From contig NZ_QKSD01000011.1 in assembly GCF_003234085.1 (NCBI RefSeq), positions 74,878 through 138,877 of the forward strand: a stretch of DNA of 64,000 nt. Direction: 5' to 3'. The notes below the pieces were generated by a model. It was not told the DNA's origin. It searched no databases and saw nothing but the letters and a program-made list of their open reading frames with translations. The DNA comes from Curtobacterium sp. MCPF17_052 (GTDB taxonomy: Bacteria > Actinomycetota > Actinomycetes > Actinomycetales > Microbacteriaceae). Shown here one piece after another: positions 3,779 through 61,134 of the stretch; within the stretch, counting starts at the first letter, position 1, and each line of letters starts with the position of its first letter. Made by a program: the position numbers and the translations under genes.

Positions 3779-4105
3779 GTGAACTGGTTGATCTTCCTGG
3801 GGGCGGTGGCCGCTGCGGTCGTCGTGGTGTGGATCGCCGACCGTCTGGGCTGGATCGACCTGTCGAACAAGTCCACACGCGGGGGCGGCTCCGGTGGCGT
3901 GGTGTCGATGATGGACGAGGTCTTCGCGCCCACCCGTCAGGAGACGCAGGCCGAGTACGAGCGGCAGGCGCGCCTCCCGCGCGAAGCGCCGACGCCCTCA
4001 CGCGACGACCACGACCTGCTCAGCGGGACCGTGCTCATCCGGGTGCCCTCGAGTCGGGCCGGCAGCGGCACGCATCGGGCGGGGACGCACGACCGGTCGT
4101 ACTGA
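3779..4105 (+). CDS. small single-pass membrane protein, unknown function
   Basis: 108 aa with a GTG start. One N-terminal transmembrane helix (NWLIFLGAVAAAVVVVWIAD) is followed by a polar, probably cytoplasmic tail with a Gly-rich spacer and many charged residues. No family is recognised. The gene stands alone, with its own leaderless promoter, between the lipoate ligase and the convergent acetyltransferase. Confidence 0.6.
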   Translation: MNWLIFLGAVAAAVVVVWIADRLGWIDLSNKSTRGGGSGGVVSMMDEVFAPTRQETQAEYERQARLPREAPTPSRDDHDLLSGTVLIRVPSSRAGSGTHRAGTHDRSY

Positions 4106-4130
4106 CACCGCGCGCGTCCGACCCGGCGGG

Positions 4131-4415
4131 TCAGCGCGTGGTGAGGTCCTGGTGGTCCGGGTGCCGTTCGAGCCACGCGGCGACGTAGCTGCAATCGGCG
4201 ACGACGCGACGGTCGGAGTTCGCGCGGACGTCGTCCAGCGCGTTCTCGACGAGGATCGAGGCGTGGCCGCCGCCGCGGTGCTCCGGGTCGACCTCGGTGT
4301 GGACGAAGTGGATCACGTCCCCGTCGATCTCGTAGGCGGCGAGGCCGATGACGTCGCCGTCCTCGACGAGGGAGTACTGGTTCTGGTCGGTGTCGTTGCG
4401 GACTTCGAGACTCAT
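4131..4415 (-). CDS. small GNAT-fold N-acetyltransferase (Acetyltransf_CG / YidJ-like)
   Basis: 94 aa, the usual length for this short GNAT subgroup. The core reads IHFVHTEVDPEHRGGGHAS, where the P-loop-like EHRGGG binds the acetyl-CoA pyrophosphate. The C-terminal VVADCSYVAAWLERHP is characteristic of the subgroup. The target is unknown. The ATG at 4415 was chosen over an upstream in-frame ATG because a TAGCGT -10 box (4423-4428) lies 7 nt before it. Confidence 0.85.
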   Translation of the reverse strand: MSLEVRNDTDQNQYSLVEDGDVIGLAAYEIDGDVIHFVHTEVDPEHRGGGHASILVENALDDVRANSDRRVVADCSYVAAWLERHPDHQDLTTR

Positions 4416-4422
4416 CCTCCGG

Positions 4423-4428
4423 ACGCTA
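4423..4428 (-). promoter_or_regulatory. leaderless -10 box (TAGCGT, minus strand)
   Basis: TAGCGT on the minus strand is followed by 7 nt and then the acetyltransferase ATG at 4415. Confidence 0.5.
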
Positions 4429-4448
4429 CGCCGGGCACCTTCCACGGA

Positions 4449-56300: not shown

Positions 56301-58758
56301 CGTCCGATCCGGGCAGCGCCGGTTCCGCTACGACGCCGCCGGGCAGCTCGTCGAGGCGGTCAACGGACTCGGAGGCGTGACCCGGTTCACACACGACCTC
56401 CGCGGTCGGGTGACGAGCGTCACCGACCCGCTCGGTGGCGTGACGACCTACCGGTACGACGGCGCCGACCGGGTCGTCGCCGTGACCGATCCGCTCGGCC
56501 GTGAGACCGCGGCCACGTACGACGCCGCCGGCCGCCAGACCGGGCAGACCGACCCCGACGGGCACACCACCACGTGGTCCTTCGACTCCTCGGGGCGACA
56601 GCACACCGTCGCGGTCGACGGCCGCACCGTGTCCGAGGTCCGCTTCGACCGTGCCGCCCGCACCGTCGTGGTCACCGACCACAGCGGTGGAGACGGCCGC
56701 GCCTTCGACCACGAACTCCAGCACGACGGCCGGGGACTGCTCGTCCGACGCAGCCGCGGTGACCGGTCCGTCACGTGGGAGTACGACGCCGACGGCAACC
56801 GCACGGCCCGCACCGAGCCCGACGGCACGCGCACCACCTACCGTCGCGACGCTGCCGGCCGGCTCGTCGGCGTGGAGCGGGTGGGCCTCCCGCTCGTCTC
56901 GTTCGTCCTCGACCCCGCCGGACGCCCCGTCCAGGCCGCGGTCGGCGACGTCGTGCACGCCTGGAGCTGGGAGAACGGCCGACTGGTCGCCCACACCACC
57001 ACGACCACCGACGGCGTCGACACCACCCGGATCGAGCACGACGCCGACGACCGCATCCGTGCCGTGGTGCAGGGCGGGGCGACGACGTCGTACGTGCACG
57101 ACGACGCCGGACAGCTCATCCGTGCCGAGCACGCCGACGGCATCGCCACCGCATGGGAGTACGACCCCGCCGGCCGCCTCGTCGCCGAGCGGCTGGCGGA
57201 CCGCCTGCTGCGCCACGAGCACGACGCCGCCGGCACGCTCCTCGCGAGCACCGACGATGCGACGGGCGAACGCGTCGAGTACGTCTCCGACGGGCTCGGT
57301 CGCCGCGTCCGTCGCACGGCCACCGACGGTACGACCACGGAGTACGCCTGGGATGACCTCGGCTACCTGGCCGCCGTCGTCGACCGCGACGCTGCGTACG
57401 CCGAGACCGGTGCGCACCGACTCCGCGTCGACGTCCTCGGCGAACCGCTCGAGGTCGACGGTGCCGAGACGTGGTGGGACAGCGCGTCCCCGACCCCGTC
57501 GCTGCTGTCGATCGGCGGCCTGCACGTCCTCGGCCTCCCGGGCGGCATCACCGCGCTCGGCAACGACTGGGCGCAGCCCACCTGGCGGGCTGCGCGCGCG
57601 ACCGACACGACGGACCCGTGGGGTGTGCTCAGCGCGGCCACGGGCCTCCAGGCCGCACCCGCGTTGCCGACCGGCGTCGACCTGACCGCCACCGGCGGAC
57701 TCGCCGTCGCGGGGCTGGAGTGGCTCGGCGCCCGCGTGTACGACCCGTCAGCCCGCGGGTTCCTGTCGGTCGACCCGCTGCAGCCCGTCATCGGTACCGC
57801 CTGGTCCGGCAACCCCTACGCCTACGCGGGGAACGACCCGCTGCACGCTGTCGACCCGCTCGGGCTCCGACCGGCGACGGACGCCGACCTGCAGGCGTAC
57901 AAGGACGAGCACGGCAGCCACTGGGAGTACGTCGTGGCCGGAGCTGCCGGTGGGTTAGGGGTGATCCTCGGTGTGGGACTGCTCATGACCGGCATCGGTG
58001 GCCCGGCCGGTATCGCCCTGATGGCCGCCTCTGGAGGGCTCGTGAGCGGTGCGCTGTCCACGGCTTCACAGAAGGCCCAGCACGGGTCGGTCGACTGGGG
58101 CAAGGTCGGTCTCGACACGGCGGTCGGTGCGGTCACCGGCGCGCTAGGCGGCGGTGCCGCGATGTTCGGCAAGGCAGCCATGGCCGCGGCACCGGCAGGT
58201 CGAGCAGCTGGAGCAGCTGCCGTCAACGCGGCCGTCAATGGTGGGGTCGGAGCCCTAGGAGGCGCAGGAACCTACCTCGCCGAGCACGGCGGCAAAGTGG
58301 AGAACTGGTGGGAGCTTGCCGGTGCCACGGTCGGCGGCGGGCTAGCCGCCGGCGCGAGCGGATTGGCGGGACCCGCTGGTGGAACGATCGCGGCGAGATT
58401 CGGACACGACGTGACGGGGCACGTTGCGAACGCCAGCGCTCTGGCCATCACTGGGGTGTCCTCGTCCGTCGGCGAAGCTGCCAAGGAGATCATCTCAGGC
58501 GACGACCTGAACCCGTCGAAGATAGCGACGAGTGGTGTCTCCGGGACAGCGCTCTCGGCTGCATTCGCCAAGTGGACGCCGAGCATGCACGGCGTCGACA
58601 CGCTCGCGCAAGTGCCGTTGTTCCACCCGGGGACGCTCAAGGGAGCGTTGAACCCGATGCGAACCAACACGCGTGCCCTGTGGGGGAGCGCAGGCCTGGG
58701 TGCGACTACCGGTGGTGGGTTCGACATGCTGAGCAATGCCCTGACGGGTGGAGATTGA
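53326..58758 (+). CDS. RHS/YD-repeat polymorphic toxin-like protein
   Basis: 1810 aa. Residues 1-110 are a helical ESX/LXG-type N-terminus, followed by a Gly/Ser linker (about 150-170), a second helical domain and a DUF6531-type block around DPVNTATGNFLESELDLGF (about 285-305). RHS/YD repeats fill about 430-1465 (many copies of the type GRPVETTGDDGG, YDAAGRQTGQT). The core ends with RGFLSVDPLQPVIGTAWSGN and DPLGL near 1509. The last ~295 residues are Gly/Ala-rich and hydrophobic, with no nuclease motif, unlike most RHS toxins. A membrane protein starts 5 nt after the stop. Confidence 0.9.
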   Translation: MSDLHGAAPLEFDNATADALIAELTSTADAIEGQSASRSSYVTTAATDFRGHFADLFGQNATTAATDATRLTGTLRDVAGWVRILKTAAEQENARRKRARDWQKEHDERNLLEVGHDWLFGEDKPPSEAPEPEPVFQASTPPAGTRQTPTPGSGGGGSGGTSSARPADLRSFATGSSDLNGQLTGRGSALRGKLDDFASRCKWGSISAHGVATAIDGWLTANDADVTWANTVAAAFEAAGGSGSVSTVSDVALAAALQGAGVSAERSGLTIEPPQAFGAPPTTGYSLDPVNTATGNFLESELDLGFTGASEQLRLTRMYNSLDDRVGVFGRGWASVLETGLAVDDEGATLTQADGRVLRFPRDGEGWHRAVGEYVRLTHEGDQLVVRDSDGGWWAFSPSGTWLAAGTGPGTTVRVERSADGTVSRLANERGRWIDVESLDGRIVVARGSDGRRVEYQYDDAGQLTHVHAPTGTRTYEWDDDGLVVAVVDEHGVVEARNTYDDRRRVVEQVTPHGRTVRFAYLPGRVTVVSDPDGSRSNTWIADAKGRLVGVVDTDDARQSMHYDARGRLVSVTDRDGSVTVHAIDDRGRRTRTVTPSGADITYGYDDQDRVTTVVTETGSVVTYEYTGDDRDPSVVVDPEGGRSELTWERGLLRRAVDPTGVAVELEHDEHGELVATRNALGDVLRVERDAAGRPTAVTTPSGARTEYRFDAAGRLTSRRDADGAEWTFEHEGSRIVAVTDPTGARTAYGYGVNGEAERTTDPLGRTITRTFDDLGNVAALELPDGGRWSFVHDPLSRLRETVDPDGNVWRRDHDRNGALTGITDPTGVSVEGTTDVATGIATLRDAFGTTTVRHDAYGRPVETTGDDGGAELVTYDRCGRPVELVDGEGGLTRLERDLAGRVTAVVSPTGARTTYEYDACGRPSASTDPLGGRTELGYDADGRIVTRTLPTGDVERTTYDAVGRVTTRITPGAGTARYRWDGAGRLVGVQDVRSGQRRFRYDAAGQLVEAVNGLGGVTRFTHDLRGRVTSVTDPLGGVTTYRYDGADRVVAVTDPLGRETAATYDAAGRQTGQTDPDGHTTTWSFDSSGRQHTVAVDGRTVSEVRFDRAARTVVVTDHSGGDGRAFDHELQHDGRGLLVRRSRGDRSVTWEYDADGNRTARTEPDGTRTTYRRDAAGRLVGVERVGLPLVSFVLDPAGRPVQAAVGDVVHAWSWENGRLVAHTTTTTDGVDTTRIEHDADDRIRAVVQGGATTSYVHDDAGQLIRAEHADGIATAWEYDPAGRLVAERLADRLLRHEHDAAGTLLASTDDATGERVEYVSDGLGRRVRRTATDGTTTEYAWDDLGYLAAVVDRDAAYAETGAHRLRVDVLGEPLEVDGAETWWDSASPTPSLLSIGGLHVLGLPGGITALGNDWAQPTWRAARATDTTDPWGVLSAATGLQAAPALPTGVDLTATGGLAVAGLEWLGARVYDPSARGFLSVDPLQPVIGTAWSGNPYAYAGNDPLHAVDPLGLRPATDADLQAYKDEHGSHWEYVVAGAAGGLGVILGVGLLMTGIGGPAGIALMAASGGLVSGALSTASQKAQHGSVDWGKVGLDTAVGAVTGALGGGAAMFGKAAMAAAPAGRAAGAAAVNAAVNGGVGALGGAGTYLAEHGGKVENWWELAGATVGGGLAAGASGLAGPAGGTIAARFGHDVTGHVANASALAITGVSSSVGEAAKEIISGDDLNPSKIATSGVSGTALSAAFAKWTPSMHGVDTLAQVPLFHPGTLKGALNPMRTNTRALWGSAGLGATTGGGFDMLSNALTGGD

Positions 58759-58763
58759 TCTTG

Positions 58764-59147
58764 ATGCCGGGCAGCAGAACTGCGAGGCGACCGTTGAAGG
58801 ACCACGCGCTGGTGTGGCGGGTCACGACGCTGGTGTTCGTCGTCATTGTGGCTACCTGGTTGACCGTTTGGATCGCTCAAGTCCCGGTGGCCAAAGCAGC
58901 GGCGGCAGGGGCGATCGGGTTGGCCTACGGGTTCTTGTTGGGCTTCCTCGAACCTCGTCAGGCTCTGATACGAGCGATCATCCCCTTCACGATCCCCGCT
59001 GGCTTCATCGTCTTGGTCGGAATCGGCGGTGTCTTCCGCGCATCATCGATGATGTGGCTCCTGACGGCGGCGGTTGCCGTCGAGTACGGCAGATCTGCAC
59101 GTGGCCGACTCCGCCGAACATCGAGCGATCCGAGCGGCGAAGCGTAG
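58764..59147 (+). CDS. four-helix membrane protein, candidate immunity protein
   Basis: 127 aa. Starts 5 nt after the RHS stop. Helices at about 20-42, 47-65, 71-88 and 95-110 and a basic C-terminus (GRSARGRLRRTSSDPSGEA). GC content is lower than in the RHS core. It matches the layout of the frameshifted membrane protein at 60000-60364. A membrane-located immunity protein would fit a membrane-active toxin. That role is inferred from position. Confidence 0.7.
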   Translation: MPGSRTARRPLKDHALVWRVTTLVFVVIVATWLTVWIAQVPVAKAAAAGAIGLAYGFLLGFLEPRQALIRAIIPFTIPAGFIVLVGIGGVFRASSMMWLLTAAVAVEYGRSARGRLRRTSSDPSGEA

Positions 59148-59150
59148 GTG

Positions 59151-59175
59151 TCGTGTCGTGTCGTGTCGTGTCGTG
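59151..59175. repeat. TCGTG pentanucleotide repeat, 5 copies
   Basis: TCGTG five times in a row directly after the stop of the immunity candidate. Such short tracts vary easily in number. Confidence 0.9.
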
Positions 59176-59276
59176 ACCGCGACGTGACAAAGTGTGGTAG
59201 CTGCAAGTACATCGGGCGATGAGCAAAGCGAGCGGTGTTCGGCAGTCAGCGCACCTTCATACGCTGCATGTCGCAG

Positions 59277-59702
59277 TCAGGCCGGAAGGGACTGTACCCA
59301 GCGGGTCAAACCGCGGAGTTCCTCATCGTGCAGGATGAGTGGGGGCGGCGTGTCCATAGCAGCCGGAAGCATCAGCAGAGTTTCGGCCGGCACCTGAGTC
59401 GTCCACTGCTCCGCTGCTGACGACGGACCAGCGGCCTCCGGCCAGCACAAGAACATCAGTGGTGAGCTCGACGATTCGGCGATTCCCTGCTGCTTCCGCA
59501 GGACACGATCGAGATCTGAGACCCGGAACTGCGCACTCAACTGAACAGTACGGACGACGACGGAACGAACCAAGCGTCGTCGTCGACCGACGGCGAGTGG
59601 TGCCCACTCAGCTCGGGCAGACGTGCCGAGCCATGGCGCAACTTCGGTCAGCGCCCACGCGGGCGGCTCTGGGCTCTTGATCTGCCGGAGACGATCGAAC
59701 AC
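59277..59702 (-). CDS. antisense-oriented ~140-aa protein, paralog A
   Basis: 141 aa from a GTG. The C-terminal half (SPLMFLCWPEAAG, then PAETLLMLPAAMDTPPPLIL and ending RWVQSLPA) aligns with the protein at 60372-60788 (PPIAFLMWPDDAA, ending EWVHTLPR). The N-terminal half is more diverged. No known domain. It stands in antisense behind the immunity candidate, as its paralog does behind the second one. Confidence 0.7.
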   Translation of the reverse strand: MFDRLRQIKSPEPPAWALTEVAPWLGTSARAEWAPLAVGRRRRLVRSVVVRTVQLSAQFRVSDLDRVLRKQQGIAESSSSPLMFLCWPEAAGPSSAAEQWTTQVPAETLLMLPAAMDTPPPLILHDEELRGLTRWVQSLPA

Positions 59703-59715
59703 CGCTTCAGCATAG

Positions 59716-60003
59716 GCGTCTGCCCCGGTTGATCGAACTGGTCTGGAGAGGGGAGACCGCTGTCGGCGGGATCAGCGGCGCCCCGGTTGCGGCGGGGATG
59801 GAGGTTCAGGCCGCGCCGTAGCGCGGGCCGCCACTGCCGCTTCAGCGTCACGTATGGCCAGCGCGGCAGCAGTCGCAGACAAGGCGCTGGCGCGGACAGC
59901 GACTCTCGGGCTCAACGTGTCGGCCAGCGTCGGTGGCGTCACGGGCATCGTCACCGACACCGCGCACCACACTCTCCAGAACAGTGGGTACTACCCGCAA
60001 TGA
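59716..60003 (+). pseudogene. orphan RHS C-terminal fragment
   Basis: The frame runs open from 59716 and an ATG occurs at 59854. The part from 59854 reads ARTATLGLNVSASVGGVTGI and ends HHTLQNSGYYPQ. The hydrophobic Gly/Ala/Ser pattern resembles the C-terminus of the RHS protein (for example NASALAITGVSSSVGEAAKE). It has no core or start of its own. The stop overlaps the ATG of the next gene (ATGA), as in a coupled toxin/immunity pair. Confidence 0.5.
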
Positions 60004-60364
60004 CGCAGACGAAGCGCTGGCGTGGACAGCGACAGCATCCGGTGAACGTGATCGCGGCGGCGTGCCTGCTGGTCGTGGGTATCGGTGTCCCAGTCGGTGT
60101 CGCGGGCGGGCACGCCGCTCTTCTCGCCCCCTACCTGGCGGTGGGTTTCGTCGCCGGACTCGTCGGGCAGGGAGTGTGTTCGCACTGCTCCGACCCGTGA
60201 CGGCGTCGTTGCTCCTCGTCGTGGGGATCTTCGGCGCGATGATCCTCTTCACCCGTGTCCTCGACGGGTGGGATGCGGCTCTGCTGCCGTGGATCACGTG
60301 CAGTTTTGCCGGGGCGGTCTTCGGCGCGCATCTGCGGTGGATGCTCGAACGTCGCCGCGTCTGA
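60000..60364 (+). pseudogene. second membrane immunity-like gene, frameshifted
   Basis: The first frame, from ATG 60000, codes 66 residues with two helices and stops at 60200. Another frame then continues with two more helices (for example LRPVTASLLLVVGIFGAMIL) and ends in LRWMLERRRV at 60364. Removing 2 nt from the GTGTGT tract at 60174-60179 restores one four-helix protein of about 120 residues with the same layout as the intact immunity candidate at 58764. Confidence 0.65.
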
Positions 60365-60371
60365 CCTGAGG

Positions 60372-60788
60372 TCAGCGGGGGAGCGTGTGCACCCACTCGC
60401 GGAACGAGTTCAGTGCTGGTCCCAGCAGCTGCACCGTCGGCGGCGTCTCCAGCGGATCGACGAGCAGGGTCAGGCTCTCCGCGGGAGCATCGTGGAGCCA
60501 ACGCCCGGCGGGTGAGTCGTCAGCGGCGTCGTCCGGCCACATCAGGAAGGCGATCGGCGGCTGGTTGACGTTCTCGGCGGTGTTGAGGTCGTGGTCGACG
60601 AGCTGCTGGACCTCACGCACCGCGAACACCGGTGTGACCGTGCCGTCGAAGAGCATGACGCCCGGGATGGTCTTGCCCTTGCGGCCGATCGGCAGCGGGA
60701 CGCACTGCGCCGTGACGCCGTCCGACTGCCAGGGCGCCAGCGTGCTGAGATCGACCGGTTCCGCGTCACGTCGTGCTCGTCCGAACAT
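60372..60788 (-). CDS. antisense-oriented ~140-aa protein, paralog B
   Basis: 138 aa. Starts FGRARRDAEPVDLSTLAPWQ after the Met; strands and short helices, with FLMWPDDAADDSPAGRWL and TLLVDPLETPPTVQLLGPAL typical of the pair. Intact and probably the ancestral copy, since its codon use and GC match the neighbours better than paralog A. Divergent from the gene at 60811. Confidence 0.75.
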   Translation of the reverse strand: MFGRARRDAEPVDLSTLAPWQSDGVTAQCVPLPIGRKGKTIPGVMLFDGTVTPVFAVREVQQLVDHDLNTAENVNQPPIAFLMWPDDAADDSPAGRWLHDAPAESLTLLVDPLETPPTVQLLGPALNSFREWVHTLPR

Positions 60789-60810: not shown

Positions 60811-61134
60811 GTGCGGGGGCGGCTGGAACGACTGGCGGACGCGGTCGACGCGATCGTGCCGCTCGTGCGGGAGGTCGACGACGTCGGCGGCCGCAACGCC
60901 GAGCGCTTCCAGGCGGCCGCGGACCGGTTGCGGAACGTCCCACTCGGACGAGCGGATCGGAACGCGGTCCTCCGTGATCTCGAGGCCCTGCTCGGGGCCG
61001 GGTCCGGACGGCTCTCCGACCGCTACATGGTGCACGACGACGGCCGACCCGACCTCGAGCGGTCGCGGACGTTCACCGAGCTGGTCGCGCGGATCCGCTC
61101 GCAGGCCTGGTGGCTCCGGCACCTGCCGTTCTGA
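60811..61134 (+). CDS. hypothetical helical protein
   Basis: 107 aa from a leaderless GTG. Mostly charged helices (LERLADAVDAIVPLVREVDD, then RSRTFTELVARIRSQAWWLR). No family is recognised. Divergent from antisense paralog B. Confidence 0.65.
   Translation: MRGRLERLADAVDAIVPLVREVDDVGGRNAERFQAAADRLRNVPLGRADRNAVLRDLEALLGAGSGRLSDRYMVHDDGRPDLERSRTFTELVARIRSQAWWLRHLPF

Follow-up and report, generated by a model that had tools for sequence, protein, structure and literature searches.

Organization of the RHS locus

The stretch of DNA analysed in this work (64,000 nucleotides of Curtobacterium sp. MCPF17_052, G000:C3:74878-138877, hereafter the window; G labels denote genomes and L labels fetched locus stretches) carries an RHS polymorphic toxin gene followed by genes for two four-helix membrane proteins (MP1 and MP2) and two small antisense genes of one family (AS1 and AS2). 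The order 3' of the RHS gene was MP1, AS1 (antisense), a C-terminus remnant, MP2, AS2 (antisense), a gene of 107 amino acids (aa) and GT, which we take, by eye, to encode a glycosyltransferase (Table 1). The list of open reading frames (ORFs) confirmed RHS, MP1, AS1, MP2 and AS2 at the positions given in a preliminary description of this DNA, which had proposed two tandem three-part cassettes. Gene maps were drawn with a home-made caller, which low-GC genes can escape; it passed over AS1 and the membrane protein genes of L044 and L067, and these were recovered by separate inspection.

Table 1. Features of the RHS locus, with positions counted from the first nucleotide of the window
Feature	Position	Strand	Remarks
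WXG100-like small protein, 93 aa	52891..53172	+	5' of the RHS gene; Pfam WXG100 E 0.012
RHS polymorphic toxin, 1810 aa	53326..58758	+	Pfam RHS_repeat, DUF6531; NCBIfam Rhs_assc_core
CT-X, Gly/Ala-rich C-terminal domain of RHS	about 57850..58758	+	homologous C-termini in L044, L067
MP1, four-helix membrane protein, likely membrane immunity	58764..59147	+	overlap or abutment with RHS stop; iterated profile
GTGTC x 5.6 tandem repeat, perfect pentanucleotide array	59148..59175		between MP1 and AS1
AS1, 141 aa, very probable third component, predicted whirly/PUR-like fold	59277..59702	-	GTG start
Remnant of older CT-X C-terminus, frame-broken, internal deletion	59752..60003 (ORF fragment 59716-60003)	+	
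MP2, four-helix membrane protein with frame change	60000..60364	+	relatives directly behind RHS in L032, L034
AS2, 138 aa	60372..60788	-	ATG start; 88-90% identical copies at site A (the window site) in G045, G001, G040
107-aa gene, likely left as an orphan immunity gene by another displaced cassette	60811..61134	+	

The RHS protein matched Pfam RHS_repeat (2.5e-112, in 24 stretches) and DUF6531 (4e-21), as well as NCBIfam Rhs_assc_core (9e-11, 42.1 bits, cut-off 32.5). RHS tails varied from locus to locus, as is characteristic of RHS polymorphic toxins, and displaced C-terminus/immunity remnants were present downstream of the window RHS. Its C-terminal domain, CT-X, was 55 and 54% identical to the C-termini of L044 and L067, respectively, over nearly the full length; a profile of this tail matched 13 places at E below 1e-30 (G050, with L036 and L109, counted once) and an additional weaker fragment in L041. 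No enzyme domain was recognisable in the CT-X tail with Pfam. This Gly/Ala-rich composition and the four-helix partner suggest that CT-X is toxic to membranes. A glycine zipper was rejected as support for a membrane toxin, as the motif GxxxGxxxG did not go beyond composition: it was absent (0) from the window CT-X tail, and its count in four CT-X tails was reached by 24-100% of shuffles. CT-X tails contained 1.16 motifs per 100 aa vs. 0.66 in other RHS tails of the same family (Mann-Whitney, 0.027), a comparison in which close relatives were kept and one CT-X duplicate stood among the others.

AS paralogy and remains of an older cassette

The two antisense proteins were paralogous, as initially claimed: they aligned over 141 columns with 30% identity (E 5e-21 as a single comparison; E 7e-16 in a search of the own genome) and had corresponding N-termini (VFDRLR in AS1 and MFGRAR in AS2). 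Relatives of AS2 in Curtobacterium were 97 and 89% identical to it, and the dN/dS ratios of this gene were 0.15 against G045 and 0.20 against G040 (0.10 for GT, given for comparison). AS2 is under purifying selection and has thus been kept as a protein in these lineages, whereas MP2 is interrupted in the window.

The relationship of fragment 59716-60003 to RHS C-termini was borne out by comparison with L032, a locus of a different genome in the genus, using its RHS C-terminus and the membrane protein gene following it: the remnant DNA matched at 77% over 125 bp (59752-59873), and remnant and MP2 together matched at 77% over 422 bp (59920-60340). Smith-Waterman z values of the remnant (300 shuffles) were 8.7 against L032 and 4.4 against L034, vs. 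0.3-2.3 against six other C-termini, including that of the window itself (1.5). Since its protein matches to L032 lay in two frames, the remnant is frame-broken. MP2 was likewise frameshifted, its two parts being in different frames (60000-60200 and about 60173-60364), and its relatives in L032, L034, L035, and L060 were uninterrupted.

MP1 and MP2 shared the four-helix layout noticed in the preliminary description, but no homology between their sequences was detected: BLAST of MP1 against the two pieces of MP2 gave E 1.3 and 1.1, respectively, and hhalign of the two families gave 1-2%. Both AS2 and MP2 had relatives in the resident site-A cassettes of G045 and G040. The duplication of AS as part of one unit was therefore not supported, and the window looks like the product of two cassettes acquired separately, at different times. 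Third codon positions were richest in GC in the DEAD and GT genes and the core of RHS (0.91-0.94) and poorest in MP1, AS1, and the C-terminal part of RHS (0.68-0.77), with AS2 in between (0.86); the lower values of the first unit fit its more recent arrival, with AS2 as the older copy.

Searches with the AS protein in Pfam, NCBIfam, and PADLOC gave nothing that exceeded the cut-off, those in PHROGs nothing convincing and those in the PDB no sequence match at E 1, and none of the 25 family members compared matched DUF5085 at E 0.1. Kinship with Imm1 was not supported, there being no Pfam match and an hhalign probability of only 0.2-0.5% against the Imm1-like domains of other CT-X loci. The predicted model of AS most resembled whirly/PUR proteins among the folds listed, and a whirly/PUR-like fold is tentatively predicted; the lack of matches to other folds was not taken as a sign of a new one.

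Membrane proteins and their fusions to AS

An in-frame alternative start of MP1 overlaps the RHS stop. Transmembrane segments were counted with a simple hydropathy rule instead of a topology predictor, and this rule detected three strong segments in MP1. By BLAST, MP1 matched the membrane proteins of L044 and L067 (E 3e-4 and 4e-4, 28-33% identity), which in turn matched a wider profile of four-transmembrane (4TM) proteins at 95-96%. A first profile mixed MP1 and MP2 types by construction and was not used for homology. An iterated profile seeded with MP1 and its L032 relative gathered, in four rounds, 35 of 22,621 ORFs, drawn from loci chosen for AS or RHS, within which its specificity was tested; these were 4TM proteins of RHS arrays (including L044, L067, L128, and L036) and the 4TM halves of 4TM-AS fusions, in which the membrane domain and AS form one chain. 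With six scrambled or reversed seeds, five recruited nothing and one only its two seed ORFs. The link between MP1 and the fusions comes from this iterated search through intermediates, direct profile comparison having given no match. MP2-type proteins stayed outside the iterated set (best E 0.027 for an L128 protein and 0.4 for L032). The model of one 4TM-AS protein (P0007) placed four helices in the N-terminal and the AS domain in the C-terminal part (mean pLDDT 80.3, pTM 0.53).

Recurrence of the cassette at two chromosomal sites

Site A, with the layout DEAD helicase, WXG, RHS ... AS2, GT, was seen in G000, G045, G040, G044, G001, and G012. In G044 it contained another C-terminus, a gene of the MP2 type and a 3'-terminal piece of AS2 of about 65 bp; the RHS gene was gone in G001 (L033), which retained AS2, and also in G012, which had an MP2-type gene and about 75 bp of AS2. 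Site B was bounded in most stretches by an antisense gene for a 197-aa membrane protein or by a longer AS-bearing relative. This boundary gene adjoins an ATPase cluster at site B (L036-L046, L061-L077, and others), with FHA and FtsK/SpoIIIE in one case tested; a description of the 197-aa protein as PH-like would be a weak guess (bPH_10 E 2.1 for one AS-bearing relative).

At site B of G041 (L044) and G056 (L067), the gene next to CT-X overlapped it and encoded a four-helix protein of 130 aa, and an AS of 137 aa lay beyond in convergent orientation. This is the order and orientation of the window unit, which argues that AS belongs to the cassette. Furthermore, AS in L044 had the new cassette on one side and a displaced RHS end of 444 aa on the other, as AS1 lies in the window between the new cassette and the old C-terminus; the L044 arrangement indicates that AS travels with the cassette. 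In L056 (G051), RHS, MP, and AS were on one strand and the AS start was the last base of the MP stop. For the pair L044 and L067, dN/dS was lowest in the toxin tail (0.09), followed by AS (0.30) and MP (0.48). None of the RHS stretches fetched besides those of sites A and B showed AS. In L032 (L032:7795-9312), three membrane immunity genes and further pieces stood behind one RHS gene, and one AS closed the array.

Two kinds of CT-X cassette

Seven CT-X cassettes (window, L032, L034, L044, L056, L067, and L128) combined a short 4TM gene with an unfused AS, located at the far end of the array in L032, L034, and L128 (four genes away in the latter). Another six (L036, L057, L062, L071, L073, and an orphan in L077) had a 4TM protein with a soluble domain of its own, of 130-140 aa, and no unfused AS. 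A separate AS thus accompanied 7/7 short-4TM cassettes vs. 0/6 of those with a soluble domain (Fisher, 0.0006; 0.018 after close lineages were merged by eye), a pattern that was noticed first and counted afterwards. The soluble domains of the cassettes lacking AS were mutually related where four of them were compared; against Imm1, one of these four passed, one remained under the cut-off and two had no match. They were unrelated to AS by profile comparison.

Co-variation of AS with the C-terminal type was counted among 34 site A and B loci with RHS (L064, L068, L078, L079, and L082, with other flanks or at contig ends, are not counted). Unfused AS occurred in 6 of 11 with CT-X vs. 2 of the 23 without it (Fisher, 0.007; 0.0007 when the closest relatives were merged), and the two latter were degenerate fragments in closely related genomes.

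Distribution of AS and RHS in the genus and the family

An AS profile scan of 66 genomes of the genus gave 37 match rows, corresponding to 35 copies in 28 genomes, since one copy each in G019 and G058 was split over two rows. All 28 fell within the 36 genomes carrying this RHS N-terminus (E 1e-10), an association with a Fisher value of 1.4e-11 by genome, uncorrected for kinship. Twenty-five copies were at RHS sites, 23 of them with the RHS gene in the fetched stretch; the exceptions were G001, where RHS is gone, and G025, whose contig begins in this place. These copies comprised 12 unfused AS, three being degenerate pieces (G027, G028, and G051), 11 placed behind a 197-aa-type membrane protein (28-42% identical by BLAST; the gene is split over frames in L037, L041, and L055), and two broken 4TM-AS (G019 and G064).

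The remaining 10 copies were all 4TM-AS with no RHS within the 18-19 kb fetched, the one in G012 being broken. The preliminary description had allowed that the AS proteins might belong to a widespread housekeeping family unrelated to RHS loci. Independence from RHS does apply to a part of the family, as an RHS-independent branch exists (10 of 35 copies in the genus and at least five of the eight matching genomes of other genera), in which AS followed a four-helix domain in 10/10 genus copies (one broken) and in 4/5 of genus g34 (the fifth shortened). Widespread it was not, AS being present in at least 9 of 398 genomes and at least 3 of 85 genera of the family: the own genome, five of g34, and three of g35 (the best 10 candidates per genome were scored for AS and the best 5 for the RHS N-terminus, and these counts are lower bounds). 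In g34, four 4TM-AS and one shortened piece were found, with no RHS in the stretch. The AS-bearing gene of this genus (L122-L124, L126, and L129) is close to a DEAD-box helicase 76-79% identical to that of the window. In g35, AS was unfused in all three genomes and convergent beyond RHS and its membrane genes in two; the third locus was about 1 kb from a contig end, with no RHS in view. In one g35 stretch (L127), AS occurred without CT-X. This RHS N-terminus was present in at least 9 of 398 family genomes at E 1e-40, and AS in three of these (G000, G099, and G388), which indicates that RHS proteins of this family often occur without AS.

Secretion context

The 93-aa protein preceding RHS scored 16.3 bits against Pfam WXG100, under the cut-off of 27.3, and copies 96-100% identical to it precede the site-A and site-B RHS genes of the genus where that end was fetched. 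A match to TIGR03924 was found by hand comparison inside 31/31 site-B stretches, all under the curated cut-off; this model also matched in 9 of 14 control genomes, in none over the cut-off. In one partial ATPase protein of site B, FHA and FtsK_SpoIIIE were over the cut-off. No ATPase of the TIGR03924 kind was seen at site A. The RHS toxin is probably exported by a type VII-like secretion system. Elsewhere in the window's genome (G000:C8:50554-59915), an RHS N-terminus with an internal stop was near a match to an ATPase of the type VII secretion system (T7SS), below cut-off; this may perhaps be a decayed site B.

Interpretation of the third gene

In the scheme that we propose, the RHS toxin gene would swap its C-terminal toxin as a unit made up of CT-X, the four-helix membrane protein and the opposite-strand AS, so that the window would hold the current cassette (CT-X, MP1, and AS1) and what is left of its predecessor (a broken C-terminus, MP2 with its interruption, and intact AS2). 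CT-X would act on membranes, the four-helix protein would protect the membrane from toxin that comes from outside, and AS would bind the end of the toxin prior to export, either in the cytoplasm or, via its four-helix partner, at the membrane; MP1 and AS1 may correspond to the 4TM-AS proteins of relatives, divided into two chains. That AS is a third component of the cassette, as first suggested, is very probable, given its recurrence at site B, its position in L044, its abutment in G051 and its occurrence in a second genus. Whether it is the soluble half of the immunity is evenly balanced in our judgement, and the complete scheme, with a membrane-acting CT-X and a four-helix plus a soluble immunity protein in one exchangeable three-gene cassette, is slightly favoured.

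If AS were instead a passenger beside a recombination hotspot, kept by chance or for a function of its own, its persistence at site A of G001 without RHS and the existence of the RHS-independent 4TM-AS branch would be expected. We consider this improbable, since the same unit is at two chromosomal sites, AS lies between new and displaced C-termini both in L044 and in the window, the MP-AS pair abuts in L056, all the AS genomes of the genus are RHS carriers (kinship uncorrected) and 25 of the 35 copies are at RHS sites. An equally improbable role is that of a whirly-like nucleic-acid-binding regulator, for example of toxin/immunity expression from the opposite strand, for which nothing specific speaks beyond the predicted fold; of the two functions named in the preliminary description, we prefer the second immunity factor. 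AS could also be an export chaperone or targeting factor that keeps the C-terminus export-competent for the type VII-like machine, which is unlikely, though less so than the two former roles. One point speaks against the immunity scheme: because of its RHS shell, Tse5 requires no cytoplasmic immunity (PMC12744356), and the same would hold here unless the present shell leaks or the site of AS action is the membrane. L036 and L057 carry AS in or beside the boundary gene, which weakens the contrast between the two kinds of CT-X cassette.

Among known systems, the closest in gene content is EsxX of S. aureus, a T7SS glycine-zipper LXG toxin: ExiCD, in the membrane, counters toxin that has been secreted, and the end of the toxin is sequestered ahead of export by the soluble ExiAB (PMC12744356). 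As described there, an exported toxin has polytopic membrane and small soluble partners at its locus, and the membrane part is also found as an orphan elsewhere. The EsxX system differs in its LXG toxin and its DUF5085 (GyrI-like) soluble partners (PMC12744356), whereas here the toxin is an RHS protein, AS occurs in addition as a fusion to a four-helix domain, and the cassette is exchanged as a whole. The CT-X/MP1/AS1 locus resembles that system in combining a probable T7SS substrate with a membrane and a soluble protein that accompany one type of toxin, without being a member of it, as DUF5085 and a zipper excess are both missing.

TelE/TipE of Streptococcus gallolyticus also involves a small antagonist of a membrane-damaging T7SS toxin, but the antagonist belongs to DUF5085, the toxin is of the LXG type, and the abstract names no membrane partner (PMC10434224). 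Tse5/Tsi5 of Pseudomonas aeruginosa, with a pore-forming Rhs effector, shares an RHS protein with a membrane-active C-terminus and membrane immunity, and differs in its delivery by the type VI secretion system (T6SS), the shielding of the toxin by the RHS shell and, in the parts of the reports drawn on here, no mention of a soluble third component (PMC9637101, PMC10684867). Two structurally distinct immunity proteins, Tdi5a and Tdi5b, serve one toxin, Tde5, in a further case; this toxin is a nuclease tied to T6SS, and the abstract contains no membrane immunity (PMC13392607). Orphan immunity proteins beside effector-immunity pairs are described for Serratia Rhs effectors (PMC10539506).

Polymorphic toxin cassettes are usually described as pairs of toxin and immunity; here a third family moves with the pair. 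The study of Serratia orphan immunity reportedly dealt with pairs and not with triplets containing a convergent third gene. The AS family has no Pfam or NCBIfam model, is mostly encoded on the opposite strand and forms one chain with a membrane domain in relatives. If AS is a soluble immunity half, two-compartment protection as in EsxX would extend to actinobacterial RHS toxins via an unrelated protein, and annotation of only the gene directly behind the toxin would overlook half of the immunity. As a tentative generalization, about which we are rather doubtful, CT-X-type actinobacterial RHS toxins might need a two-part immunity, with a membrane half and an exchangeable soluble half, the latter being either AS, as an undescribed whirly-like domain (convergent or fused behind the membrane half), or an unrelated Imm1-like domain (fused to the membrane half). 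Literature searches over titles and abstract starts retrieved nothing on these proteins for Curtobacterium and Rhs, and nothing for Curtobacterium with type VII secretion and toxin.

Neighbouring genes and other observations

A search covering sigma-70-type and T-tailed patterns only found no promoters or terminators, and no Rfam family was found with Rfam. Fusions of the 4TM-AS type in L047-L050 are beside gene clusters that we presume, from gene sizes and recall, to be Wadjet (JetABCD)-like. A homologue of the window's 107-aa gene directly followed another kind of RHS C-terminus at site A in L060, and the 107-aa gene is probably an orphan immunity gene that stems from a third cassette, since lost. 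In L036 (L036:14567-15183, oriented 3819-4435), an ORF of 91 aa looks by eye like the tail of the RHS C-terminus in L060; it is followed by a soluble ORF similar to the 107-aa gene of the window.

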